Source of the DNA: a virus
Direction: 5' to 3' (one strand)
DNA: 28,479 nt
Virus record (IMG/VR): IMGVR_UViG_3300010316_000033
Span: 1 to 28,479 of that record
The notes under the pieces are model-generated. The model did no database searches. It was not told the DNA's origin and saw only the letters and a program-made list of their open reading frames with translations. The position numbers were made by a program, and so were the translations under genes. Below are positions 1-28,479 of the stretch, piece after piece (the stretch's first letter is position 1; every line of letters starts with the position of its first letter).

Positions 1-69
1 AGATTGTAGTAAAAACTTATCCACGTTCCAAGTTTCAACGGACCAATTTTGTGCATTTTCTTGTGTCAT
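1..69 (-). CDS. Unknown protein, N-terminal part only (cut by left edge)
   Basis: An ATG at 69-67 opens a frame that runs to the window edge (23 codons), beginning MTQENAQNW and continuing SVETWNV. No strong ribosome binding site is visible; only a weak TAGG lies some 12 bases upstream. A sigma70-like promoter at 141-169 points at it. The W-x-x-E-T-W-N-V stretch reminds me of small phage proteins that carry a WNVALW-type motif, but 23 residues are too few for assignment. The first gene downstream of the modification cassette, it is possibly transcribed separately from it. Confidence 0.5.
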   Translation of the reverse strand, partial: MTQENAQNWSVETWNVDKFLLQS

Positions 70-79
70 AGCAATATAC

Positions 80-169
80 CTATTTTGCTGTTTGCTTAAT
101 GATGCGCTCTGGCTTCATGCTCTGGCGTATCATGTTTAGTAACATAGTTGGTTTTTGGTGATTCGTCAA
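80..169 (-). promoter_or_regulatory. Sigma70-like promoter and leader for the left-edge gene
   Basis: On the minus strand TTGACG (169-164), a 17-base spacer and TATGTT (146-141) form a plausible early promoter just beyond the stop codon of the CmoA-like gene. The leader contains the direct repeat GCCAGAGC twice, five bases apart, and an imperfect inverted repeat, ATGATACGC with GCGCATCAT. It also holds a 17-codon frame at 133-80 that I do not count as a gene. The spacer length equals that of the other promoters in this half of the window. Confidence 0.5.
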
Positions 170-172
170 GGG

Positions 173-868
173 TTATTTTACCGCAATCGCCCCAACAAAC
201 ATGAAGTTCTGCCAGAACGGTTGTACGCTCTTGAAGCCCGCATCATAGATCATCTGTTCAAGTTCTTCCCAGGTGTTAGGTTTGAGCATGTTACGAAGTG
301 TAACCTCTTTGCCCATAATGTCAGCCTCAGAGAAAGACTTGCGTTTATAGTCATAGTACGTGAATGTCATCATGTCTTGAATACGTGCGTCTGTGGCCAC
401 AGTCTTCTCACCGAAGATGAATGCGCCGCCTTCGTTTAGACCTTCATAGATACGGTCAATCACTTCAGCACGGGCGTTACGTGGCATGAACTGTAGAGTG
501 AACAGAGATGTGACAAGACTTGCGTTTTGAATAATAGTGTCACGAATGTCTTCTTTCAGATATCTCACTGAAGTGCCAGGAAACTTATTCTCAACCTCCA
601 AAACTCTATTATTCATCGCATCTTCAAAGCCGTCTGCGATTTCAACGCCAATGTAGTTGCAGTATGGCGCAAACGAATAGTTTTGTTCAGCCATTGCTAG
701 AATGGTCTTGCCAGTGCTAGAGCCAATGTCATAGACAGAACTTTCATTGTCTACGAAGTATCTAGACAGTGATACTACATCATCATGTAGATTACTGTAC
801 CCTCGGATACTCATTTCAATGTGATTGTCAAAACCTTCTTCACGGTGTGCAAATGTAAAATCGTTCAT
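173..868 (-). CDS. cmoA: CmoA-like class I SAM-dependent enzyme (carboxy-SAM synthase family)
   Basis: 231 aa, against 247 for E. coli CmoA, which turns SAM and prephenate into carboxy-SAM for tRNA wobble modification. Resemblance runs end to end: GYSN (res. 23-26), the SAM-binding VYDIGSSTG (45-53), EDIRD (106-110), NASLV (115-119), FTLQF (123-127), YEGLNEGGA (141-149) and a C-terminal FW-x-N-F-M-F-x-G segment. These blocks separate CmoA from generic methyltransferases. In my recalled alignment the E. coli Arg199 that binds the carboxylate corresponds to Glu188 here, with Lys187 kept and Arg192 one helical turn on, so substrate use may be altered. The ATG overlaps the stop of the methyltransferase gene (ATGA), suggesting translational coupling. 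A consensus promoter lies 150 bases upstream. No cmoB is visible, so I infer a role with the adjacent DNA methyltransferase. Family call firm, reaction uncertain. Confidence 0.82.
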   Translation of the reverse strand: MNDFTFAHREEGFDNHIEMSIRGYSNLHDDVVSLSRYFVDNESSVYDIGSSTGKTILAMAEQNYSFAPYCNYIGVEIADGFEDAMNNRVLEVENKFPGTSVRYLKEDIRDTIIQNASLVTSLFTLQFMPRNARAEVIDRIYEGLNEGGAFIFGEKTVATDARIQDMMTFTYYDYKRKSFSEADIMGKEVTLRNMLKPNTWEELEQMIYDAGFKSVQPFWQNFMFVGAIAVK

Positions 869-2096: not shown

Positions 2097-2903
2097 TCAA
2101 AATAGCTTTGGACCAACGTTCTGCCAGTCTCTTACAAGATCCATGACTCTTTCCCTATTATACGGGTTTATTTCACGATTGTCAAGTAGTTTTTCAAAAT
2201 AATCTGGTATACCTGCGATCAACTGCAAGTTCTCATGATTTCTTCTCTTCAATGCTCGTATCTCAGGAAATGCGTCATGTATGCAAGATTTTTGGTATGG
2301 TTTATTGAAGAAGTCCCAATCGTGTTGCATCATCCACTCAGCAACGCTTTTCTCAAGATAAGGTGCGACTAATCTCATACCATTTTCTTTCGCAAGCTGT
2401 TCTTGTTGTCTGACGCCAGCAGGATTAGGTGCACCAAAGTAATCGTTACGAAACTGATCAAATAGTTCTTTCGTATGCTTGAAGTGAATGTTGGCACGTT
2501 TAGACACACCATACCAACCATCAGCAGCAACCCCCGATAAGACTACCTTCTCTTTTATTTTAGGATAAACGTACATGAATGGCCATGTACACTCAACTTG
2601 AGTTTTTTTCTTGCACTTGTAATGATTGATTAGCGTAAAAAAATCCTCTTCAATGTTGTCTACAGGAACATCAACTCCAACGAAGTCCCAACCAAAATGA
2701 TCGGCAGCGTCCTTTGCACCCAAACTATCACTAGTCTGTTGACCATTAATGTACATGCTGTAACCAGTAACTTTTTTACCGAGTCGCATAGCAGCGATGC
2801 CACATGTGATGCTGTCTGTTCCAGCAGACAAAAGAACAGCCACTTCATTCTCAGTGGCTTGCTCCTCTACAATGTCTACAATGATTTCATCAATGTTTTT
2901 CAT
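2097..2903 (-). CDS. Asparagine-synthetase-like ATP pyrophosphatase (PP-loop), no glutaminase domain
   Basis: 268 aa. A PP-loop at residues 26-31 (SAGTDS, usually SGGxDS) binds ATP so that a carboxylate can be activated as an acyl-adenylate. VVLSGVAADGWYG (120-132) corresponds to the LSGDGADELFGG region of AsnB, and LVAPYLEKSVAEW (178-190) to its RVPFLDHRLVE region. The N-terminal glutamine amidotransferase domain of AsnB is absent, so the nitrogen donor would be ammonia or another amine. The ATG lies inside the end of the DUF465-like gene (14-base overlap), and the stop is followed after eight bases by the methyltransferase start. In this operon I infer that it amidates a carboxylate on modified DNA, or on a precursor. 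Alternative: free asparagine or other amide synthesis in the infected cell. Fold call good, substrate unknown. Confidence 0.75.
   Translation of the reverse strand: MKNIDEIIVDIVEEQATENEVAVLLSAGTDSITCGIAAMRLGKKVTGYSMYINGQQTSDSLGAKDAADHFGWDFVGVDVPVDNIEEDFFTLINHYKCKKKTQVECTWPFMYVYPKIKEKVVLSGVAADGWYGVSKRANIHFKHTKELFDQFRNDYFGAPNPAGVRQQEQLAKENGMRLVAPYLEKSVAEWMMQHDWDFFNKPYQKSCIHDAFPEIRALKRRNHENLQLIAGIPDYFEKLLDNREINPYNRERVMDLVRDWQNVGPKLF
2157..2185 (-). promoter_or_regulatory. Full-consensus sigma70 promoter before the cytosine methyltransferase
   Basis: Minus strand TTGACA (2185-2180), 17-base spacer, TATAAT (2162-2157). It sits inside the 3' end of the AsnB-like gene, about 70 bases before the methyltransferase ATG. 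It is identical in both hexamers and in spacing to the promoter at 1013-1041, which suggests selection for strong early expression of both genes. Confidence 0.7.
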
Positions 2904-3063
2904 TTAGCGCTTTTATTCTTTCAATCTCATCTTTACAAACCAACTTCTCTTTCTTCAGATTGGTGATGTATTTATCTGGAGCCCTTTCACCCTGGAGTGC
3001 CTCTATTCTCTTGTGCAAGTCATTATGCTTTCTTTCCAGAGAAGCAAGCCTATTCGCTTTCAT
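2890..3063 (-). CDS. Small DUF465/YdcH-like helical protein
   Basis: 57 aa, starting MKANRLASLERKH. The ATG (3063-3061) has a good AGGAG six bases upstream, which overlaps the gp46 stop codon. The pattern L-x-x-x-H-x-x-L-x-x-x-I near the N-terminus, followed by a proline-containing turn and then LKKEKLVCKDEI, matches the two-helix hairpin of the DUF465 (YdcH) family of small bacterial proteins, often found in alphaproteobacteria and their phages; its function is unknown. The stop lies 14 bases inside the AsnB-like gene, so the two are probably translationally coupled. Strongly charged, no membrane segment. It could be an accessory factor of either the gp46/47 complex or the modification cassette. 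Confidence 0.8.
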   Translation of the reverse strand: MKANRLASLERKHNDLHKRIEALQGERAPDKYITNLKKEKLVCKDEIERIKALNEKH

Positions 3064-3072
3064 GTCGATCTC

Positions 3073-4782
3073 CTATGTTTCCATTGAACTGAAGTTTTTC
3101 ACCTTTTTGAATCTAATAGTTCTGTCAAACTTATCTTGAATCTGATCACCTTTATGACTAATAATAAACACATTGGCGTCACCTGTCAAGTCTTTAATGA
3201 TTTTTAGAAACTCATCTGTTCCGTTGTTGTCCAGAGAAGAGTCCATGATCTCATCCATGATCAACAGGTTGGTTGATACTGAGTTACGCAACTTTGATAC
3301 AGTCCGCCATGTAAAGAGAAGGCTCAAATCTATCCTCAACTTTTCACCTTCAGAAAAGGAACTGTATGAGAATGCGTCACGAAAACGACTTTTGATGGTT
3401 TCGTTGAACGACTCATCCAACTCAAACTGCACAAAAAAGTCCATCGCAGCCAAATACTTGTTGATAAGTTTATTCATGATCGGCACATACTGTTTGATGA
3501 TTCTCGTTTTGATACCACCATCTTTCAGCATAGCACCAACAGTTGCCAGAACTTCTCTTTCTTCTGTTAGTTGCTTTTGCTGTTCCATTGACTTCTTTAA
3601 GTCATTTTCAAAAGTCTTGATTGTCTCATCATCAACAGTTTCAATGTCACGCTCTGCTTCCACCAACTCTTTTTGTAATGATTTACATGCGTTCATGGCC
3701 ATCTTCTTATTAGCACGATGTTCGCTTATCTTCATGCTAATAGTAGAAATAGAGGATTCAATACCGCTTATTTCTGATAATCTAGCTTCTACACCCTCAG
3801 ACTTATTTGACAACTGATTCTTAGCGGCTTCAATCTTTACGATTTTGTCATTAGAATCTGTCAGAACAGAACTCTTGAAATCGTGTTCAATACCCTGTTT
3901 ACATGTAGGGCAGTTATCGTGATTGTTATAGAAAGTTAGATTCTTCGTTAGAGTTCTTTTCTTGTTCTCAAGATCACGCATCAAATCATTGATTTCAGAA
4001 AACTTTTTCTCCATCTTTTCTTTGTCTGTGATCTTAGATAGAAGATCGTCAACCTCATCAGAAAGTTTGTTTATTTCAGTCTCTTCTTTTTCAACGTATC
4101 CTATCTGTTCTTTTAGCTTACTCTTGATCTTTTTTATTTGACTTTCCTTCAACTCACGAATAGATTCTGTATGAGTCTTAGCGGAATCAATCTTATTTTT
4201 GGTTAGATCAATAGTGTATTTTATTTCTGTCAAGTTTTCCTTGTTGGTTGACACACGATCTTTCAAGAGTGTGTTCATTGTCGTAAAAATCTGAATGTCT
4301 AGCAGGTCTTCAATCACATCACGCCTAGACTTAGCAGGCAACTGCATAAAAGGAACAAACGTGGATGAGCCAAGAACTACGACTTGACCAAACGACTTAT
4401 AGTTCAGCTTCAGAATGTTGTCTTCAAGAAATGCTTGGTAATCACGCGCGGCTGCGTCTTGATTCAAGAGCTTGTTGTTTGACCAAATCTCAAAGATGCT
4501 GGGCTTGATACCTCTTTTCACTAGATAGTTCTTACCACCAACTGCAAACTCAACTTCAACCACTAAGTCTTTTTGGTTGATGCTGTTCAGGAGTTGGTTT
4601 TTATTGATTTTGCGAAATGGCTTGCCATAAAGAACAAAGGACAACGCATCTAGCATTGTACTCTTGCCAGCACCATTTTCACCCACAATAAGTGTGGTGT
4701 CATGCGAGTCGAGTTGAAGTTCTGTCCAAGCATCACCTGTGGACAGAATGTTCTTGTATTTGAGTTTCTTGAAATGAATCAA
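3073..4782 (-). CDS. gp46: gp46, SbcC/Rad50-like recombination ATPase subunit
   Basis: 569 aa (T4 gp46: 560). Forms the gp46/47 nuclease that resects DNA ends for recombination-dependent replication and degrades host DNA. Walker A at residues 34-42 (GENGAGKST), YKNI near the N-terminus as in T4, long charged coiled-coil arms at about 170-430, a zinc hook CPTC at 291-294, the ABC signature in YSSFSEGEKLRID, and Walker B LLIMDE followed by SLDNNG. The start is TTG, chosen because AAGGAG lies eight bases upstream and MIHFKKLKYKNI aligns with the T4 N-terminus; no ATG fits. Separated from gp47 by 12 bases. The 3' end covers a likely promoter at 3161-3189. Confidence 0.95.
   Translation of the reverse strand: MIHFKKLKYKNILSTGDAWTELQLDSHDTTLIVGENGAGKSTMLDALSFVLYGKPFRKINKNQLLNSINQKDLVVEVEFAVGGKNYLVKRGIKPSIFEIWSNNKLLNQDAAARDYQAFLEDNILKLNYKSFGQVVVLGSSTFVPFMQLPAKSRRDVIEDLLDIQIFTTMNTLLKDRVSTNKENLTEIKYTIDLTKNKIDSAKTHTESIRELKESQIKKIKSKLKEQIGYVEKEETEINKLSDEVDDLLSKITDKEKMEKKFSEINDLMRDLENKKRTLTKNLTFYNNHDNCPTCKQGIEHDFKSSVLTDSNDKIVKIEAAKNQLSNKSEGVEARLSEISGIESSISTISMKISEHRANKKMAMNACKSLQKELVEAERDIETVDDETIKTFENDLKKSMEQQKQLTEEREVLATVGAMLKDGGIKTRIIKQYVPIMNKLINKYLAAMDFFVQFELDESFNETIKSRFRDAFSYSSFSEGEKLRIDLSLLFTWRTVSKLRNSVSTNLLIMDEIMDSSLDNNGTDEFLKIIKDLTGDANVFIISHKGDQIQDKFDRTIRFKKVKNFSSMET
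3161..3189 (-). promoter_or_regulatory. Sigma70-like promoter inside the 3' end of gp46
   Basis: Minus strand TTGACA (3189-3184), 17-base spacer, TATTAT (3166-3161). About 100 bases before the DUF465-like gene and so placed to drive the modification cassette from its first gene. It overlaps conserved codons (DANVFIISH), which could give a chance match, but spacing and position agree with the other promoters in this half of the window. Confidence 0.45.
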
Positions 4783-4794
4783 CTGAACGTCTCC

Positions 4795-5859
4795 TTATAA
4801 ACTAAGGGCTTCATTGTATAGACTTTGAAGGCATTTGTCAACCTCTTTTTTGTCAACCTTGACTTCCATAGATTCTACGTATTTTTTCAGAATGGTTAGT
4901 GTATCTTGTGCTTCGTCAACGATCTCTGAATCTTCAATCGCATCCATGTCAAGATGATCTTCAACAACCCTGATGTCAGCCGCATTACATGAATCTAGAC
5001 GATCCATAAAGATGTCAAACAGATAGGGGTTTGTTTTGTTTTTTACGATAACCTTGACATACGTACCCTCAAGACCCTCTAGATTTAGATTGGCGATTTC
5101 ATCAATAGTTAGATCGCTGTCTTCGTAATCAATCTTGTGGAACATGCGATACGGGTTTTCAATGAACTCCATCTTTCTTGTATTTGTGTCAAAGATGTGA
5201 AAACCTCTCTTACCTCCATGATCAGACCAGGTCATCTCATAAGGTGCACCCAGATACGTGATGTTAGAATGCGAAGACGGATGATGGAAGTGACCAGAAT
5301 AAACAGCGTCAAACTTGTTGAAAGACGATCTGTCTAACCCATGATCACACAGTTGACCTTTCATCATTTCATAACCAGAAATCTCAAAGTGACCCATCAA
5401 AATCTGTGCTTTTGTGTTATCAAACGCCTTCATTGTCACGTCATGATTAGCCTGACAAATCCAAGGTGAAAGCATAACTTTACACCCATCAAAGTCCAAC
5501 TCAACAGGCTCATGCTCATAAATGTGAATGTTATCATAACTCTTTCCATAAAGTTCTTTTACACCATTCACTTCGTTAGTGTTTTTATAGTAAGAATCGT
5601 GATTGCCTACAATCAAATGTAAATTCATGTCATTATCTTTTATCACACGCATGAAATGCTCTTCTAGTTTAGAAGAGGTGTGAAAGTTGACATACTTTCT
5701 TCTATCCAAGAGGTCTCCCAAATGAATAATAGTGTCAATGTCTCTATCTTTTAGAGTTGGAAAAAACACATTCTCATGAAAGTCAATAGCATTCTGTAAG
5801 AACGCTTTACTGTCCCCTCTCACACCCCAATGCGTGTCGGTGATAACTGCGATTTTCAT
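4795..5859 (-). CDS. gp47: gp47, SbcD/Mre11-like recombination nuclease subunit
   Basis: 354 aa (T4 gp47: 339). Calcineurin-like metallophosphoesterase partner of gp46. Metal-binding motifs in order: D-T-H at residues 8-10, GDLLDRR with Asp49, GNHD at 85-88, and the late GHF-x-HPS histidine cluster. The remainder forms the capping and DNA-binding part, with a C-terminal helical tail expected to contact gp46. The ATG overlaps the stop of the preceding 55-aa gene (ATGA). Its last codons contain a likely promoter for gp46. Confidence 0.95.
   Translation of the reverse strand: MKIAVITDTHWGVRGDSKAFLQNAIDFHENVFFPTLKDRDIDTIIHLGDLLDRRKYVNFHTSSKLEEHFMRVIKDNDMNLHLIVGNHDSYYKNTNEVNGVKELYGKSYDNIHIYEHEPVELDFDGCKVMLSPWICQANHDVTMKAFDNTKAQILMGHFEISGYEMMKGQLCDHGLDRSSFNKFDAVYSGHFHHPSSHSNITYLGAPYEMTWSDHGGKRGFHIFDTNTRKMEFIENPYRMFHKIDYEDSDLTIDEIANLNLEGLEGTYVKVIVKNKTNPYLFDIFMDRLDSCNAADIRVVEDHLDMDAIEDSEIVDEAQDTLTILKKYVESMEVKVDKKEVDKCLQSLYNEALSL
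4813..4841 (-). promoter_or_regulatory. Sigma70-like promoter for gp46
   Basis: Minus strand TTGACA (4841-4836), 17-base spacer, TACAAT (4818-4813), within the last codons of gp47. Transcription would begin near 4806, giving gp46 a short leader of about 25 bases that includes its AAGGAG ribosome binding site. Confidence 0.6.
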
Positions 5860-6023
5860 CTATTACCTTTTCTATGCGATTCGTAGATTTTCAAAGCATT
5901 GTTAGATGCTTCTACAATGTCTTTCAGCGTTTTTACATAATGCTGTCTTTGTTCATAATGTTTCTTGGGATCAGTTACATTTTTTATTAGATCCTCTATT
6001 ATTACTGGTAGTATCAGTTTCAT
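5856..6023 (-). CDS. Small protein between gp55 and gp47
   Basis: 55 aa, beginning MKLILPVIIEDLIKNV. The ATG (6023-6021) starts two bases after the gp55 stop. An AGAGGA about nine bases upstream lies inside the end of gp55 and is the probable ribosome binding site. The stop overlaps the gp47 start as ATGA, typical of translational coupling. Predicted helical and basic at the C-terminus (SHRKGNR), with no membrane segment or known motif. I do not recognise the family. The tight fit between two essential genes argues that it is real; its position suggests a role near the recombination nuclease or the late sigma factor, but this is only inference. Confidence 0.72.
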   Translation of the reverse strand: MKLILPVIIEDLIKNVTDPKKHYEQRQHYVKTLKDIVEASNNALKIYESHRKGNR

Positions 6024-6025
6024 TT

Positions 6026-6568
6026 TTAGCTATCCTCTATAAAGTTCTCAACACCCTTTTTCTTAGCTGCGGTTCTCTTTTTAGTCTCTAATCGTTTCTC
6101 GTATGTTGAAACAAATGTATTCATGTAGTCGTTATCCAAATCTACATACGATGCTTCACCACTTTCTCCAGACTTTTTATCCATTATTGTATCATGAATC
6201 ATCGCATTTTCAGTCACTTTGTGTTTGATGTATACCTGTTTCTTTTCTTTTTCAATACGTCTAAGAAATGCGTACCAAATAATCTGTGTGAAGTATGCGA
6301 ATGGATTGCTTGATTTATCTGGGTCAAAGTTATTAATAGCTTGAATAGCATTTTCTAATCCATCACTAATCATCTCATCTTTATAAGAATAGCCTGAGAA
6401 GTTTGGTTTAGTTGCTAGTCTGTTTGCTATCTGATAGATACTTTTACCTATGTAATCTGGTATCATCGGTGGCTCTTCGCCATTCTCTTCGTGTTTCTTT
6501 CTGTCGTCTCTGTACTCAACAAGAGCGTCTAGAAAGTCTTTGTTGTTGATGTAGTTTTTTCTTCCCAT
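6026..6568 (-). CDS. gp55: gp55, late-transcription sigma factor
   Basis: 180 aa (T4 gp55: 185). Binds host RNA polymerase core and recognises the TATAAATA late promoters, which are plentiful in this window. Matches to T4 gp55 include an N-terminal YINNKDFLDAL segment, NFSGYSYKDEMISDGLE (a sigma region 2-like core), INNFDPDKSSNPFAYFTQ and RIEKEKKQV. The C-terminus VENFIED resembles the hydrophobic-acidic tail by which T4 gp55 binds the sliding clamp gp45, so clamp-dependent activation is probably kept. An AAGGA nine bases before the ATG is the ribosome binding site. Its own promoter is at 6590-6618. Confidence 0.93.
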   Translation of the reverse strand: MGRKNYINNKDFLDALVEYRDDRKKHEENGEEPPMIPDYIGKSIYQIANRLATKPNFSGYSYKDEMISDGLENAIQAINNFDPDKSSNPFAYFTQIIWYAFLRRIEKEKKQVYIKHKVTENAMIHDTIMDKKSGESGEASYVDLDNDYMNTFVSTYEKRLETKKRTAAKKKGVENFIEDS

Positions 6569-21997: not shown

Positions 21998-22005
21998 TAT
22001 TTATA
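21998..22005 (-). promoter_or_regulatory. Late promoter TATAAATA for gene 14
   Basis: Perfect match on the minus strand. The stop codon TAA of the GIY-YIG gene (22003-22001) lies inside the promoter, so the homing gene ends exactly where the expression signal for 14-15-16-17 begins. Confidence 0.82.
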
Positions 22006-22714
22006 CCGTTTTTAGTTTACAATTATCAAAGTGCCAACGTGGCATTACTATGGCGTTACCTGTTTTGTTGCAATGTGGACAGGTTACATCTTCTCTTTTA
22101 TTTCTTTTATTTGCTTCTGATATTTTTCTACTAATTTCACGCTTCTGTTCATCAGTTCTATTAGCGTGCATTTTCTTTGCTTTATCCGAATAGTACTGTT
22201 TACGTTCTTCTTCAGTAAGTTTTTTCCATCTATCTTCTACAGGGAACTTTTTAGTCATAGTTTCCTTCATAGACTTTCTTCGCTTTTCAATAACTTCAGG
22301 ATCAGAGCTTTTATTATCTCTATTCTTCAATCCTTCTTCGTATTTTTTACGAACACCTGGGCGCTGCATAGCTTCTTTAGTTTTATGGCTAATTTTTTCA
22401 CGTATCGTTCTTACATTTTCAGGATAAGCTGACCAATGTTGTGTTGTGAATAATATATTGTAATATCTATCTTTATTTTTTTCTGCTAATTTTAACCATT
22501 CATTTTCAGACTCATATAGCTTAACTCTATCTTCATATACTACATCAACAATTCTTCTTTTAAAATCTTGTGGTCTTCTACGATAGGCATCTCGCATTCT
22601 GTTAGAAGAGCAAATATATCCATCATCTTCGGTACCCCAATGTGAACCGATATAATATAACTTTCTTCTTCTATCGTACCAGATATACACAAATCCATAT
22701 TTTTCTTGTTTCAT
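22001..22714 (-). CDS. GIY-YIG homing endonuclease with C-terminal zinc finger
   Basis: 237 aa. The GIY-YIG domain is at residues 1-95: GFVYIW (7-12), YYIGS (20-24), an Arg-rich helix and the catalytic Glu in YESENEW (68-73). A basic linker follows, with repeated ERRK/KEKIS-type segments like NUMOD3 DNA-binding modules. The C-terminus forms a zinc finger with C212, C215, H228 and C232. A free-standing homing endonuclease inserted between 13 and 14; the target is expected in the homologous 13-14 junction of phages that lack it. Its leader has a hairpin that hides the ribosome binding site in read-through RNA but not in RNA from its late promoter. Confidence 0.9.
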   Translation of the reverse strand: MKQEKYGFVYIWYDRRRKLYYIGSHWGTEDDGYICSSNRMRDAYRRRPQDFKRRIVDVVYEDRVKLYESENEWLKLAEKNKDRYYNILFTTQHWSAYPENVRTIREKISHKTKEAMQRPGVRKKYEEGLKNRDNKSSDPEVIEKRRKSMKETMTKKFPVEDRWKKLTEEERKQYYSDKAKKMHANRTDEQKREISRKISEANKRNKREDVTCPHCNKTGNAIVMPRWHFDNCKLKTV

Positions 22715-22764: not shown

Positions 22765-23508
22765 CTAGCCGATCATGTCGTGGACGGGAAGACTGTAGCT
22801 AGAAATCATGTCTTCTTCTAACTGTCTAATCTCTTCCCTTGCGTCTTGCAAAATCTGCTCTCCGTTGAATGTGACACCACCAGGTAACTGCATACCATTG
22901 AACTTCGTTAGGTTTGTCCCCCACTGATACTTGATCTTAGCTGTCGCATAGTTCTGTAACCAACGATCTTTCCAAACATCAGTATAAGTCGTGGGATCAA
23001 CAATAGAATAACACTCTGCTACAATGTAGCCACCTGTGTTTAGATTACCCCATTCTGTATCAATGTGCAGCTTGTTCACATGGCGATTGTATCTAATAGG
23101 CTGCATACCTGTTAGAATCTCTTCCATAAACTGAAGATGCTGCATTGACATGTAGAAGTGAATCAGATTATAATCCGACAACTCATGAACATGATTTAGA
23201 ATAAACTGGTACTGTGCGCCGAACATGTTATTAGAAAATGCAGCGGAAGATGATAGATTGAAAATGTTCACAACACCAATAATGTTTTCTGGTATTGTGA
23301 TGTAACCATTTTCTTTATCTGTGTCTGTAATCTGATGCTTCAGAAAGATTTTCTCGGTACCGTCAAAATGATAATCGTGCCAATAAAGTAATGCCTCATC
23401 AATTCTGTCTTCTATTTGATCAATATCGACATTGATTTCAATGACTGGTTTACCAAGTTTTCTAAGACACCATTCCCTGAACTGTTCGCGATTTGTCGGT
23501 AATGCCAT
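22765..23508 (-). CDS. gp13: gp13, neck / head completion protein
   Basis: 247 aa (T4 gp13: 309). Binds the portal after packaging and provides the tail attachment site with gp14. LRKLGKPVIEINVDIDQIEDRIDEAL (res. 15-40) matches LRRLGAPIINVELTPDQI of T4, YHFDGTEKIF is shared, and the C-terminal DRWLQNYATAKIKYQWG followed by MQLPGGVTFNGEQIL aligns with VKDYATALAKELNG and MMLPGGVTIDGQRL. The ATG overlaps the HNH stop (TAATG). A GGAAG lies before the start. Confidence 0.95.
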   Translation of the reverse strand: MALPTNREQFREWCLRKLGKPVIEINVDIDQIEDRIDEALLYWHDYHFDGTEKIFLKHQITDTDKENGYITIPENIIGVVNIFNLSSSAAFSNNMFGAQYQFILNHVHELSDYNLIHFYMSMQHLQFMEEILTGMQPIRYNRHVNKLHIDTEWGNLNTGGYIVAECYSIVDPTTYTDVWKDRWLQNYATAKIKYQWGTNLTKFNGMQLPGGVTFNGEQILQDAREEIRQLEEDMISSYSLPVHDMIG

Positions 23509-24179
23509 TACTGCTTCCTTTTTAGTCTACCAAAAGAAAATTCCTCTGGCTTGTTTTTGGGTAGATCAAATGTTTCTATGGATCCATTGTTGAACCATTT
23601 TTTACCACTCGGCCCCTTTGGTCTATTTTTAGACATTCTAAGTCTAGCTTCATCCGATTGACTTCTTCCTCGTATTTTGCTTAGACGCTTTTCTTTATGT
23701 TCTTCAGTCTGAGTTTTTCCAAAATGAGGAGAAAGCTCCCCCCTTTTACCCCACATCCCATTTCTTTTTCCGGCATGTGTTTTATTCTCTAATCTAGTCT
23801 TTGACATCTTTAGCTTTGAGTCTGCGGAATGCTTCAAATACTTTTTAACAGATTCGTATAGTTTTGAGTTACAGTATCTTTCATTTTTACCTTTCATACA
23901 CATTACAGCCCAAATCATTTTAGATTTTTTTTCTCCAGTTAGCATTTTTGTTAGCAGGATATGACAAACGAAATGTTCTCTGGCAGTCAGAAAAACTGTG
24001 TCGCTATCGTTTCCACCAAGAGATTTGGGGATATAGTGATGATTCTCAACATAAAAGTCAGCTGTTTTTTTACACCAATCTCTTTCAATAGCATTGTCAA
24101 CTATCTCAAAATACCATTTAGAGTATTTATTGTCTAGACACCATTCTGTAAACTCTTTTCTTGTAGTAGGCTGAGCCAT
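23508..24179 (-). CDS. HNH homing endonuclease whose N-terminus copies that of gp13
   Basis: 223 aa. HNH core: HHYIPKSLGG (res. 47-56), then LTAREHFVCH with His69 and His73; the middle Asn/Asp lies in GNDSD. The C-terminal half has NUMOD3-like DNA-binding repeats (GMWGKRGELSPHFGK, TEEHKEKRLSK, SDEARLRMSK). The first 15 residues, MAQPTTRKEFTEWCL, closely follow gp13's MALPTNREQFREWCL, and 11 consecutive bases (GAATGGTGTCT) are identical at the same codons. It takes the place directly behind the late promoter that would otherwise serve gene 13 and ends in a TAATG overlap with it. This suggests invasion of the start of gene 13 with duplication of its first codons. GAGGGGAAG is the ribosome binding site. 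Confidence 0.88.
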   Translation of the reverse strand: MAQPTTRKEFTEWCLDNKYSKWYFEIVDNAIERDWCKKTADFYVENHHYIPKSLGGNDSDTVFLTAREHFVCHILLTKMLTGEKKSKMIWAVMCMKGKNERYCNSKLYESVKKYLKHSADSKLKMSKTRLENKTHAGKRNGMWGKRGELSPHFGKTQTEEHKEKRLSKIRGRSQSDEARLRMSKNRPKGPSGKKWFNNGSIETFDLPKNKPEEFSFGRLKRKQ

Positions 24180-24329: not shown

Positions 24330-24644
24330 CTATTCTCTTATAGATGTATTAGCTGAGAACTCTTCCCACTCTTGATTTAAACTCCAGCTAACTCCGTCAT
24401 ACAAAAACTTTGAATGCTCAAAAGTCTCTTGAACTGTTATCGCATTATTAGATTCATCTAAGACTTCTTTCGCAAAAAGAATTTCTGGATTTTCTACATT
24501 CTCATAAAGTGAGACGGTTTGAGAAGATAGCCCAAATATTCTAGAGTCATCCACAACAACGTGGTTTGGTTTAACTTCTAAAACTCCATCATCTTCACTC
24601 ATATAAAGAACATGATTATCTGAGTTTAATACTATAATTTTCAT
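24330..24644 (-). CDS. Hypothetical small protein of the tail-fibre region
   Basis: 104 aa, beginning MKIIVLNSDNHVLYMSED. Strands alternate with short loops (NHVVVDDSRIFG, TVSLYENVENPEILFAKEVL), and the end is YDGVSWSLNQEWEEF. No motif, signal or membrane segment. It follows the propeller protein after 13 bases with a good GGAG ribosome binding site, so it is probably co-expressed with it. A small fibre-associated or assembly protein would fit; I do not recognise a family. Confidence 0.65.
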   Translation of the reverse strand: MKIIVLNSDNHVLYMSEDDGVLEVKPNHVVVDDSRIFGLSSQTVSLYENVENPEILFAKEVLDESNNAITVQETFEHSKFLYDGVSWSLNQEWEEFSANTSIRE

Positions 24645-24657
24645 CTCTTTCTCCTAC

Positions 24658-26913
24658 TTAATATGTCTCGTATGTTAGACTTACTTGAATATCACCAATT
24701 CCACCAGGCTCTATGCTTAATACATCACCAGCAGTTAGAGATAAACCTGGTGTAATTCCTAAAACAGAATCTCCAACTTCAACCTGCTTAGAAGAGACAA
24801 TAGGAGTATCATTTAAATAAGTAGTAAACGTTGCTGTTGATGCTCCATCAAAATTAGTTACCTGACATCCATAGATTCTAACATTACTTGTAGCCTCAAG
24901 AATAGTTTGTTTTAATGTTCCAAAAGTTAAAGATTTATTTTCTACTGAGAATCCTGAGGCAATATCACCAGAGAGTTCTTGGGTGGTGATTGAGTAGGAA
25001 ATGTCTTCTGTAGAGGATGCCCTAATATCAGTATTTGCGTCCATAACTAGCGCGCCTATATTGATCTTACTTGTCTGATTTGGAAACACAGTCGAACTTT
25101 TTCGTAAACTATGTATACCGGCCGGTGCGGTTCCTACACCAGCATCTGAAGTCAAGTTAAAGGTGAGTATGTCGTCGTCTCTGAAGTCCAGGCAGGCAAT
25201 CTGCGATTTTGATTGTATGAGTTTGAAATTAAAAATAAAGTCTACATCACCTGCGACAGTATCTTGAAGATTTAGGTCATAGGAAGAATCAAACGTAGCA
25301 GTGTCAATTTCCCAAGCAGTGGAAAGATTCCACTTTTGTAAAATATTTGGCGGGCGCATTAAAAACATTACTAGACCATTATCTGCAAATCCAATACTAA
25401 AATTGGCGGTGAAAGCGCCGCTTATAACAACACTTGCAGATGCCGTAGATAAATCCCATGGCGAAGACAGATTGTATTGCTGCACGTAAGGTGCGTTTCC
25501 ATCACTAGTAACATATAAACGAGTTCCGTCGGGGTTTATGCGAAATGACAATTGGCCGTTGTTGCCAAACACCGTCTGCGTATCAAGTTGATTTACCATC
25601 GAAGAAAGTGTTGATAAATCCCAGGGGGTGCTTAGATTATACTGATCTATATACCGTTGTCCGCTGTTAACAAAAACCGCTGTACCATCTGCTTTAAACT
25701 GTAAGTCATATCCTTGCGGCGCATTGCCTGGAGTGGATATGCCGTCGTATATAGCAGTGGACACATCAAACGGCTCTGACAGAGAATATTGAAGAATGCC
25801 ACTTTGCGTAATGCCCACGACATATAGTTTAGTACCGTCACTTTTAAAATCCAATCCGTAAGGTTGCCCTGCTTGAGCGCTCAGTACAGGTGATTTATGT
25901 GCAAAAGAGACGTCAGACAGATCCCACGGCGTTATATAAAGATCACCAAAGAAACTCAAATTGTATTTTAAAACGGAGTCAGTTGTAAAATCTACCAAAA
26001 ACACATCAGAGTCCGAATTTGACAGCGCAATTCCTCGCGGGCTAATGGTCTGAGAAGACACGTTGAAATTTCTAATATTGTCTGTAGCTGTGGTCAAATC
26101 CCAAGCAGTTGCAAGTTCAATTTCACGTATAGCATCATTGGTGTCGTCTACATAGTAAAAACGCTTTCCGTCTGAAGAAGGAACTGCGTTACTAGTCCCA
26201 CTACCTGTTAATGGTAATTTAAAACGTGTTGCAAAGTTAACACTTGGTATACTCCAAGGTGTTGAAAGTGTAAACTGGTTCAAGCTGTTGACACTATAAC
26301 TACTTCTGACGTAAAGTTTTGTCCCGTCGTCGTTAAATGAAAAACCCCCTACCATATAGAAGTCAGTATTACCACCAAAGGTGGTATAACTAAGTGTTGA
26401 TGCCAGCGTTGCAGTTGTAATGTCATATGCAACACTCAGATTAAATTCTTTGCCCTGGCCGAAGGTGTTGGACCACCCAACATACATTTTAAGACCGTTA
26501 TTCCCAAATGATATATCAGAAGGGTTACTAACACCAGTGGCTATATTTGCACCGCTATAAGAAACCGTGGAAATATCATACGCTGTACTGAGATTATACT
26601 CAAATATTTTATCTGTTGTCTGGCCTACCACATACATTTTTGTCCCTGTATCATTAAATGCAACTCCGTGAGGTGTAGCCTCTTGAATAGTTACAGAGAA
26701 ACTATTACCAGAATAACTAGCGCCCAAGCTAGTATAAGTTTCAAAATTATCTACGCTGCTATCCACCGAATCTATGTTAATAACAGCGTTATTTGCACTG
26801 TTGTTTGTAACTGTAAAATTTACAAGTTTAGACGCGCCCGAAGAAGATGCCGTGTATAAAATACTTGTGTTGCTTGTTATTGTTCCTGTAACAACATTAG
26901 AGGTCACTGCCAT
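24658..26913 (-). CDS. Large repeat protein, probable beta-propeller tail adhesin
   Basis: 751 aa. After an N-terminal beta domain (1-90) come about nine repeats of 45-60 residues (about 75-600) with the pattern G-x-x-F-x-x-D-G-T-K-x-Y-V ... Y-N-L-S-T-P-W-D-L-S-T, for example GLDFKSDGTKLYVVG followed by LQYSLSEPFDVST. Each unit has the strand layout and DG turn of a beta-propeller blade. Residues about 620-751 form a separate C-terminal beta domain. No signal peptide. Position among fibre genes suggests a receptor-binding or fibre-tip protein; no enzymatic motif is seen. The gene is preceded by a duplicated ribosome-binding-site segment. Confidence 0.72.
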   Translation of the reverse strand: MAVTSNVVTGTITSNTSILYTASSSGASKLVNFTVTNNSANNAVINIDSVDSSVDNFETYTSLGASYSGNSFSVTIQEATPHGVAFNDTGTKMYVVGQTTDKIFEYNLSTAYDISTVSYSGANIATGVSNPSDISFGNNGLKMYVGWSNTFGQGKEFNLSVAYDITTATLASTLSYTTFGGNTDFYMVGGFSFNDDGTKLYVRSSYSVNSLNQFTLSTPWSIPSVNFATRFKLPLTGSGTSNAVPSSDGKRFYYVDDTNDAIREIELATAWDLTTATDNIRNFNVSSQTISPRGIALSNSDSDVFLVDFTTDSVLKYNLSFFGDLYITPWDLSDVSFAHKSPVLSAQAGQPYGLDFKSDGTKLYVVGITQSGILQYSLSEPFDVSTAIYDGISTPGNAPQGYDLQFKADGTAVFVNSGQRYIDQYNLSTPWDLSTLSSMVNQLDTQTVFGNNGQLSFRINPDGTRLYVTSDGNAPYVQQYNLSSPWDLSTASASVVISGAFTANFSIGFADNGLVMFLMRPPNILQKWNLSTAWEIDTATFDSSYDLNLQDTVAGDVDFIFNFKLIQSKSQIACLDFRDDDILTFNLTSDAGVGTAPAGIHSLRKSSTVFPNQTSKINIGALVMDANTDIRASSTEDISYSITTQELSGDIASGFSVENKSLTFGTLKQTILEATSNVRIYGCQVTNFDGASTATFTTYLNDTPIVSSKQVEVGDSVLGITPGLSLTAGDVLSIEPGGIGDIQVSLTYETY

Positions 26914-26920
26914 TCTATTC

Positions 26921-26943
26921 TCCTATTATATCCTATTATATCC
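26921..26943 (-). repeat. Ten-base tandem duplication at the propeller-gene ribosome binding site
   Basis: On the minus strand GGATATAATA occurs twice in tandem and is followed by GGAG, seven bases before the ATG. The gene therefore has GGA three times in register. The unit includes TATAAT, but no -35 box stands at a suitable distance, so I read it as a slippage product near the start site. It overlaps the end of the 109-aa gene. Confidence 0.6.
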
Positions 26944-27265
26944 AGTATTTATTGTCATAATAATCTGTTGGAATTGGATTTTGTATTTCTAATTCATTTG
27001 ATCGTGTTCTAATTGTTTTAATTTGATCCCAGATTGCTTCCATTTGTGTGACTTCTGTTTGTTGTTCTGTGGTCCAGTTTGCTTCACCGATGCGCAATAA
27101 TTCTGCTGACCGTGCCAACATATTTCTTTGTTTGTATTCTGGTGCAATAGCAAGAATGCGACGAGATGCTTCTTGCTTGACCATATCCGCTGTGGGTGGA
27201 GACGGAGGGGGAAAGTCGCTGTCAGGTACTTCAATAATTTCACCGTTTTTTAATACTTTTGCCAT
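26936..27265 (-). CDS. Small fibre-associated protein, possible tail-fibre chaperone
   Basis: 109 aa, starting MAKVLKNGEIIEVPDSDFPPPSPP. A Pro-rich linker precedes a helical segment with EASRRILAIAPEYKQRNMLARSAELL, GEANWT and AIWDQIKTIRTRSNELE, then PIPTDYYD. I know this architecture (RRI..I.PEWKQRN, E.nWt..E, ..IW..I..IR) from many small proteins encoded directly after phage tail-fibre genes, often thought to assist fibre assembly, without proof. The start overlaps the fibre-gene stop (TAATG) with AAGGAG upstream, so it is coupled to that gene. Confidence 0.7.
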   Translation of the reverse strand: MAKVLKNGEIIEVPDSDFPPPSPPTADMVKQEASRRILAIAPEYKQRNMLARSAELLRIGEANWTTEQQTEVTQMEAIWDQIKTIRTRSNELEIQNPIPTDYYDNKYWI

Positions 27266-28479
27266 TAGAGGGTCTCCTTGTAGCCGTAGAGTGCGAATGT
27301 GCCACCTGTGATGTTGTTGGAAAAGTCCTTTAAGCGCAAAACGTCAGCCTTCGACGAATTTTGTCTCCACCCCATACACTTTTGGCGAAATGCGTAAGCC
27401 GTTGCTGTTGGTTTTATCATCATTGAATTTGCGTTGAGTGCGAATTGATCCGCAGTGTTCACAATGTCCATGATTGAATGCGTAGGGTTTGTGTCTAAGT
27501 CGTTTCCACAAATCACGAGACCATTTGATGGATAACCTTGCTGTGAGCTTAATCCCGTTGTCGAAAACCATTTATCTAGCCGATATGCGTAATTTGTGCT
27601 TTGGAAAGTCGAACCCCCGTCTAGCGAGATTGTCCCGAAAAGATATGATCCGCTTGATGCGTAGGTTAAATCTTGAACAATCAACCTGAACCGAGAATAG
27701 CCTGCGGGTAAGTCTATATCCACCGCGTTCACCGAAGTAGTGACAGTTTCCACTGACAACAACTCAAGACCGCTAGTTTTTTCTTCAATCTCTTCTAATT
27801 TTGTGTAAAAGTATGCACTATCACTAGAGTTTAGCTGTCCTCTGTCATGTATTTCATCAATACTATAAGTATTAATGGTACCGACGTTAACATCTCCAGC
27901 CACTGTTATATCACCAGACGCGTCTAGGCTCAGTACAGAAATGTTATTTGCTACAGAAATATTATTGGATACGGTTAAGTCGCCAAGTAATGAAATGTTA
28001 TTTGCAGAAAGTGTTTCAGAAGTAGTATTATAAGTTAAAGACGAGTATCCCCCAAAGATTCCACCATCGTTTATTTGAATTGAAGAGTTTGGTCCTTTTG
28101 GGCTGCTTAAATCATAAAGATCGCCTATAGAAGTATAAAAGTATGCGCTGTCGTCTTGTAATATCTCTAAGGTGTCTAATTGTTCTTGAGTAAGTCCACC
28201 TCCACCTGCACTTTGATCTACCCAATCATAATCAGATCCTGTCCAAGATAATACTTGATTATTAGTAGCGGTTGAAGTGTTTAAATGAGCATCTACATCA
28301 CTATTTGAATAAGACCCTCCGCCTGCGGTATCTGTGAATGAAAGTGTACCAGAACCGTCCGTCGTCAAAACTTGACCATTAGAGCCATCTACAGTCGGAA
28401 GTGTAAATGTAGAGACAAAAGATGATAGGTTTGCGTCAAAATCTGCTAATGTAATTTCTCGCGTAGACAATGCCGTTAC
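27265..28479 (-). CDS. Tail-fibre-like protein, N-terminus beyond right edge
   Basis: At least 404 aa. The frame is open to the window edge (codons GTA-ACG-GCA before a TTG at 28470), so that TTG is not a convincing start and the gene is cut here. The N-terminal part has motifs typical of phage fibres: GSNGQVLTTDGSGTLSF and NNQVLSWTGSDYDWV, then Gly-rich hinges and short repeats (DLTVSNNISVANNISVLSLD, ITVAGDVNVGTI). A heptad-like helix ending KLEEIEEKTSGLE precedes a C-terminal beta domain (about the last 180 residues) that closes with TGGTFALYGYKE, a common end of marine phage fibres. Probably a trimeric, host-contacting protein. Confidence 0.75.
   Translation of the reverse strand, partial: VTALSTREITLADFDANLSSFVSTFTLPTVDGSNGQVLTTDGSGTLSFTDTAGGGSYSNSDVDAHLNTSTATNNQVLSWTGSDYDWVDQSAGGGGLTQEQLDTLEILQDDSAYFYTSIGDLYDLSSPKGPNSSIQINDGGIFGGYSSLTYNTTSETLSANNISLLGDLTVSNNISVANNISVLSLDASGDITVAGDVNVGTINTYSIDEIHDRGQLNSSDSAYFYTKLEEIEEKTSGLELLSVETVTTSVNAVDIDLPAGYSRFRLIVQDLTYASSGSYLFGTISLDGGSTFQSTNYAYRLDKWFSTTGLSSQQGYPSNGLVICGNDLDTNPTHSIMDIVNTADQFALNANSMMIKPTATAYAFRQKCMGWRQNSSKADVLRLKDFSNNITGGTFALYGYKETL

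Follow-up and report, generated by a model that had tools for sequence, protein, structure and literature searches.

The 751-residue protein encoded near a fibre-like gene in the DNA analysed here (hereafter the window, a virus record of 28,479 bases) contains ten repeats that are predicted to form two successive five-bladed beta-propellers. It is best explained as a structural tail-tip or fibre protein in which one variable face of these propellers would bind the host surface, a reading to which we give a probability of about 0.72.

Results

Gene order around the propeller gene

The minus strand of the window bears T4-like neck and tail genes, and the nearest relatives of its gp23-like protein were those of the Sinorhizobium phages phiN3 and phiM12, with 68% identity. 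In 5' to 3' direction, the fibre-like gene, which runs off the window end, comes first; it is followed by the 109-aa gene, the propeller gene, the 104-aa gene, an HNH endonuclease, a gp13-like gene, a GIY-YIG endonuclease and a gp14-like gene (Table 1), gp13 and gp14 being what we take to be the names of the PHROG connector families found here. The first 15 codons of the HNH endonuclease ORF correspond to the native gp13 start (44 of 45 bases as in locus L005), and in the gp13 of the window itself the start is recoded (29 of 45 bases); the HNH element seems to have been inserted in gp13 near codon 15, bringing a substitute 5' end.

Table 1. Features of the propeller locus, with their positions in the window.
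Feature	Position	Strand	Basis or remark
Propeller gene (751-aa protein, predicted twin propeller)	24658..26913	-	ORF and AlphaFold model
Residues 1-64, N-terminal region	26722..26913	-	low-confidence model, some strands; presumed attachment part
Residues 65-320, predicted propeller 1, five blades	25954..26721	-	model: closing strand 65-73, then 4+4+4+4+3 strands
Residues 321-335, linker	25909..25953	-	pLDDT <50 at 322-327; similarity to L002 falls here
Residues 336-596, predicted propeller 2, five blades	25126..25908	-	model: closing strand 336-340, then 4+4+4+4+3 strands
Residues 597-751 and stop, C-terminal region	24658..25125	-	beta-rich from about 641; conserved in L002-L004; L004 similarity rises at its start
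104-aa gene	24330..24644	-	homologue 3' of the propeller gene in L002, L003 and L004; without family match
109-aa gene between fibre-like and propeller genes	26936..27265	-	without clear family match
Fibre-like gene, 5' end beyond the window	27265..28479	-	N-terminal part like phage tail fibre and gp9-like genes
HNH endonuclease ORF and the window's own gp13	23508-24179 and 22765-23508	-	
GIY-YIG homing endonuclease between gp13-like and gp14-like genes	22001-22714	-	

Ten repeats in the protein

The best ungapped 25-residue self-match of the protein reached 79, while 200 shuffles gave at most 48, so that the nine-fold repeat described in the initial annotation is real, with the correction that the number is ten. 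A blade profile placed nine repeats at residues 80-557 (it was built from these same nine hand-cut repeats and is circular for them), and nine is an undercount because a degenerate tenth repeat without the motif follows at residues 558-596, where the model has three strands (560-566, 571-576 and 581-586). The variation in loop length that had been pointed out between the DGTK and YNLS strands was also found, with 3-6 residues, but the loops between successive blades show the widest range, with 6-13 residues. The turns are nearly constant, with 4-5 residues in the DGTK turn and always 8 in the LSTPWDLST turn. At the DNA level, the longest exact repeat inside the gene is 11 bases, and the longest inexact repeat families are 32-35 bases long and 65-75% alike.

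Predicted fold

An AlphaFold model of the window protein was obtained from 34 sequences, with a mean pLDDT of 78 and a whole-model pTM of only 0.47, and a relative with five repeats (L109) was modelled with 54 sequences. The structure prediction proposed earlier as a way to count the blades supported a propeller in both models, and it replaced the single nine-fold ring by two rings of five. In the window model each propeller is closed by its N-terminal strand, and the blades run to residue 319 in propeller 1 and to 586 in propeller 2; the weak point of propeller 1 is the first strand of blade 4, around 243-246 (244-245 by DSSP, 243-246 in our computations). The L109 model had a pLDDT of about 98 from residue 71 on and 1+4x4+3 strands, that is, a five-bladed ring closed by one strand. 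Its best structure matches with VIA-align were 3qqz (Z 23.0, rmsd 2.7, 228 aligned), 3mbr (22.0, 2.6, 213), 2iwa (21.2, 2.8, 216) and 3nol (21.1, 2.7, 214), a group of glutaminyl cyclases that we take to be five-bladed. For the window protein, 6qsd matched propeller 1 over residues 65-318 (Z 17.1, rmsd 3.6, 205 aligned) and 7byx matched propeller 2 over 338-597 (Z 16.6, rmsd 3.9, 237 aligned). Single-domain matches stop at 318-320 or begin at 338, and those spanning both propellers, mostly multi-propeller proteins such as LRP6, had rmsd values of at least 18. A split beta-sandwich, with residues 1-64 and 597-662 as halves of a domain like 663-751, was rejected, the pairwise scores falling below the shuffled mean.

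Repeat number across the family

The comparison of repeat number in relatives that the initial annotation had suggested gave a quantal pattern. The iterated blade profile was run over ORFs of at least 60 residues in 208 loci, which came from a gp13 search (80 loci), protein relatives, three phage records, the window and a DNA pattern for DGTKMYV-like codons (at least 120 stretches). Only matches holding the DGTK core were counted, those more than 45 residues apart were taken as separate arrays, and arrays were dereplicated and those cut by contig ends removed before counting. Of the 141 complete arrays that remained from these public viral and phage loci, 87 had 5 repeats, 29 had 10 and 4 had 15, in such a way that these classes hold 120 arrays and none had 6, 7 or 11-14. 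The other 21 counted 0 (2 arrays), 1 (6), 3 (2), 4 (7), 8 (2) and 9 (2); the window is one of the two at 9, and its place outside the classes comes only from the tenth repeat, which is so degenerate that the profile misses it. Some arrays sit within long ORFs. Locus L007 holds, at 3-581 (+), a propeller ORF with three repeats followed by a stop and its 5' end outside the contig.

In the 29 ten-repeat arrays, blades 5 and 10 scored lowest (49.5 and 30.1 bits, the others 74-86), and the last blade was likewise the lowest in the 87 five-repeat arrays. Blade 5 was below the mean of blades 1-4 and 6-9 in 28 of the 29 and blade 10 in all of them, and the spacing from blade 5 to 6 exceeded the median of the other spacings in 22 (p = 0.014). 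The four 15-repeat arrays count against the simplest form of this low-last-blade argument, as blade 10 scores 72.4 bits in them, which is not low. We do not claim that a unit of five blades was duplicated in tandem: offset 5 was slightly above the other offsets on average (0.527 versus 0.416-0.520), and it was the best in just 9 of the 29 arrays.

Variation on one face of the propeller

In propeller 1, the window and its relative L002 differ by 18 nonsynonymous and 2 synonymous changes among 213 codons within residues 106-319. With strands taken from the model, 13 of the nonsynonymous changes fell in the 49 codons of the beta2-beta3 and beta4-beta1 loops (the variable face), none in the 51 codons of the opposite-face loops and five in strands, these at or within 3 residues of the strand ends bordering the variable face. 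The hypergeometric p for this clustering was 4.4e-6 over all codons and 3.7e-5 over loops alone, values to be read knowing that adjacent changes may not be independent. An excess of dN over dS on the variable face was not significant for this pair (p = 0.24).

In the family, 93 ORF pairs shared a block of at least 400 bases at 80% or more, 62 of them with at least six changes, and from these 18 non-overlapping pairs were picked greedily and pooled. Their pN/pS was 0.97 on the variable face, 0.41 on the other face and 0.27 in strands, with nonsynonymous to synonymous changes of 196:61 and 64:50 on the two faces (p = 1.3e-4). Single pairs differ: the variable-face ratio was clearly above 1 in one pair, L160/L183, with 4.6 (p = 0.0017 in the overlapping pair L091/L160), and 0.12 in L159/L197, indicating strong purifying selection. 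As the pooled ratio is 0.97 and the pairs differ, the variable face appears relaxed or diversifying overall, with diversification clear in some pairs only.

Tracts of different similarity in close relatives

Three relatives, L002 (76%), L003 (66%) and L004 (79%), align lengthwise with the window protein; all are without the N-terminal region, and L004 is a C-terminal fragment. Each repeat was most like its own counterpart in 10 of 10 cases against L002 and in 9 of 9 comparable cases against L003, whose contig is without repeat 1. This one-to-one pairing, together with the short exact DNA repeats, speaks against the change by repeat recombination that had been proposed for this protein. Unlike in the window, DNA-level exchange between blades might occur in L096, L113, L108 and L128, because their blades match one long DNA pattern; several blades in these loci recur at 153-base steps or near multiples.

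Between the window and L002, pS rose from 0.02 in propeller 1 to 0.41 in the linker and 0.43 in propeller 2, and it reached 0.70-0.73 in the C-terminal region; against L004 it was 0.69 in the covered part of propeller 2 and 0.07-0.08 in the C-terminal region. The similarity thus breaks near residue 321, in the linker between the propellers, and near residue 600, where propeller 2 joins the C-terminal region. These tracts, seen in two metagenome contigs, suggest that whole domains have been swapped between related phages, although the breaks may instead be assembly chimeras in those contigs. A filter that asked for one repeat above 0.93 together with another below 0.80 was applied to 34 long-array pairs, and L096/L113 was the one further pair to pass; it was set aside because of a truncated ORF, in which the repeat numbering may be shifted, and ring exchange as a general feature was not based on it.

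Wider gene context

As to the view that this design is unusual for a T4-like tail tip, blade matches were found upstream of gp13 in 11 of the 42 related T4-like gp13 loci with at least 2 kb of upstream sequence; in all gp13 loci the figure was 16 of 80, some with just one to three repeats. Downstream of the family arrays, 138 ORFs were found and 72 were taken; these were short ones, with some near-duplicates dropped, to which those of L007, L008 and the window were added. Of these, 37 matched the tail assembly chaperone family PF16778 (cut-off 0.001) and 37 a tail fibre assembly PHROG.

Profile searches with the 104-aa gene of the window gave neither a PF16778 nor a tail fibre assembly PHROG match, and its reading as a diverged PF16778 chaperone was rejected (0.2% probability in profile comparison). 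In L002, L003 and L004 a homologue of it comes after the propeller gene, and the 104-aa protein could possibly be a partner or chaperone of the propeller protein. No match was found by tblastn against the phage collection for the C-terminal region of the propeller protein or for the two small neighbours. In L002, the propeller and 104-aa genes are followed not by gp13 but by a 1304-residue frame at 2417-6331 (+), which by eye resembles a glycosyltransferase-methyltransferase fusion.

Discussion

The gene context and the one-faced variation agree with the receptor-binding head put forward in the initial annotation and make it plausible. The closest analogy is given by the receptor-binding proteins (RBPs) of Staphylococcus phages phi11 (gp45) and 80alpha (gp61), which are five-bladed with an N-terminal strand closing the last blade (PMC4901313, PMC7048315); for the phi11 propeller, the proposed ligand is GlcNAc of wall teichoic acid (PMC4901313). 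The best DALI match of phi11 gp45 was 3NOL (PMC4901313), which comes fourth for L109. Both proteins differ from ours in that each chain carries a single propeller together with helical stem and tower domains (PMC4901313, PMC7048315). The arrangement of five four-stranded blades plus an N-terminal closing strand is predicted twice in the window protein and once in L109, and no helix is predicted in its residues 1-64, where pLDDT is low, as a counterpart of the triple-helical N-terminal stem of the phi11 type. Further marks of a phi11-type RBP are a trimeric state on the baseplate and binding to a host glycan. The window protein had no profile match to PF21311 (Phage_RBD_prop, the phi11-type RBP) up to E = 1, and 2 of 54 five-repeat relatives matched it weakly (best 0.0047). 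The phi11 RBP structure was absent among the best 50 matches listed for L109, which does not imply unlikeness.

The same repeat family is present in gene 51 of Lentibacter phage vB_LenP_ICBM2 and in gp42 of Roseobacter phage CRP-9, both annotated as hypothetical. Gene 51 lies between annotated tail assembly chaperone genes and, unlike the window protein, has a single five-repeat array; CRP-9 gp42 has three separate arrays of five. Outside phages, the profile of 54 five-repeat arrays matched the surface layer protein 1l0q at 4.7e-19, and 50 of the 54 matched Pfam SGL. Such YVTN/SMP-30-like propellers are presumably larger rings of seven or six blades; in contrast to the seven-bladed lactonase/YVTN propellers, the window model has two units of five and the family follows 5, 10 and 15. 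Other phage propellers proposed as receptor-binding heads are PRD1 P2 and phiKZ gp131C (PMC4901313), which are distorted five-bladed and seven-bladed, respectively, unlike the rings considered here.

Among the alternatives, a structural spacer or connector of the neck, whisker or baseplate without receptor role is unlikely: the gene is only a few genes away from the gp13/gp14 neck genes, and arrays also occur inside long ORFs, but neither one-faced variation nor fast propeller turnover would be expected of it. Slightly less likely still is a surface-polysaccharide enzyme, in which a GH43 galactanase-like propeller 2, which would need catalytic carboxylates in its central cavity, could cut capsule or LPS. 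Residues 338-597 do match 7byx, 7bys and 7byv (Z 16.4-16.6, rmsd 3.8-3.9), but this likeness is a fold match at just 7% identity, the fold is common to many non-enzymes, and Pfam and NCBIfam searches gave no glycosidase match for the window protein. A single ring of ten equal blades, for which an almost continuous array and a spacing of about 51 residues in ten-repeat relatives would speak, is very improbable given the division of the structure matches at 318-320/338, the low score of blade 5, like that of a last blade, and the closed five-bladed ring modelled for the one-array relative L109.

The best reading is thus that of receptor-binding units that would work in the way of phi11 gp45 but are arranged in tandem. 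The protein, probably located in the virion at the tail tip or fibre, would display two five-bladed propellers in tandem, with the beta2-beta3 and beta4-beta1 loops turned to the host and binding its surface, most likely a glycan, and with the DGTK and LSTPWDLST turns making an opposite, rigid face. Specificity would shift through substitutions on the variable face and when related phages trade whole propellers or the domains beside them. Single blades would not be gained or lost, since a closed ring of five has room only for complete units.

On this reading the protein follows a known working principle in a tandem variant. In the open-licence literature searched, no title dealt with phage-tail propellers of five blades in tandem or with a rule of five; within that scope, the novelty lies in this rule, seen throughout a large family that is uncharacterised, and in the variation on one face. 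More tentatively, and at somewhat below even odds, the arrays may represent a widespread phage adhesin family of interchangeable five-blade cassettes (5, 10, 15), in which the ring is the swappable unit, with a hypervariable and an invariant face, and host range evolves by changing or trading whole rings, never single blades. RBPs of uncultured T4-like phages often go unnoticed for lack of a match to any named family, and the simple rule of DGTK/LSTAWDIST blades grouped by five would find candidates from sequence and predict their host-contacting loops. With rings that would change by face substitutions or whole-ring exchange while the blade count stays the same, the rule of five offers a clean natural experiment on the limits that a closed ring of repeats sets to evolution.
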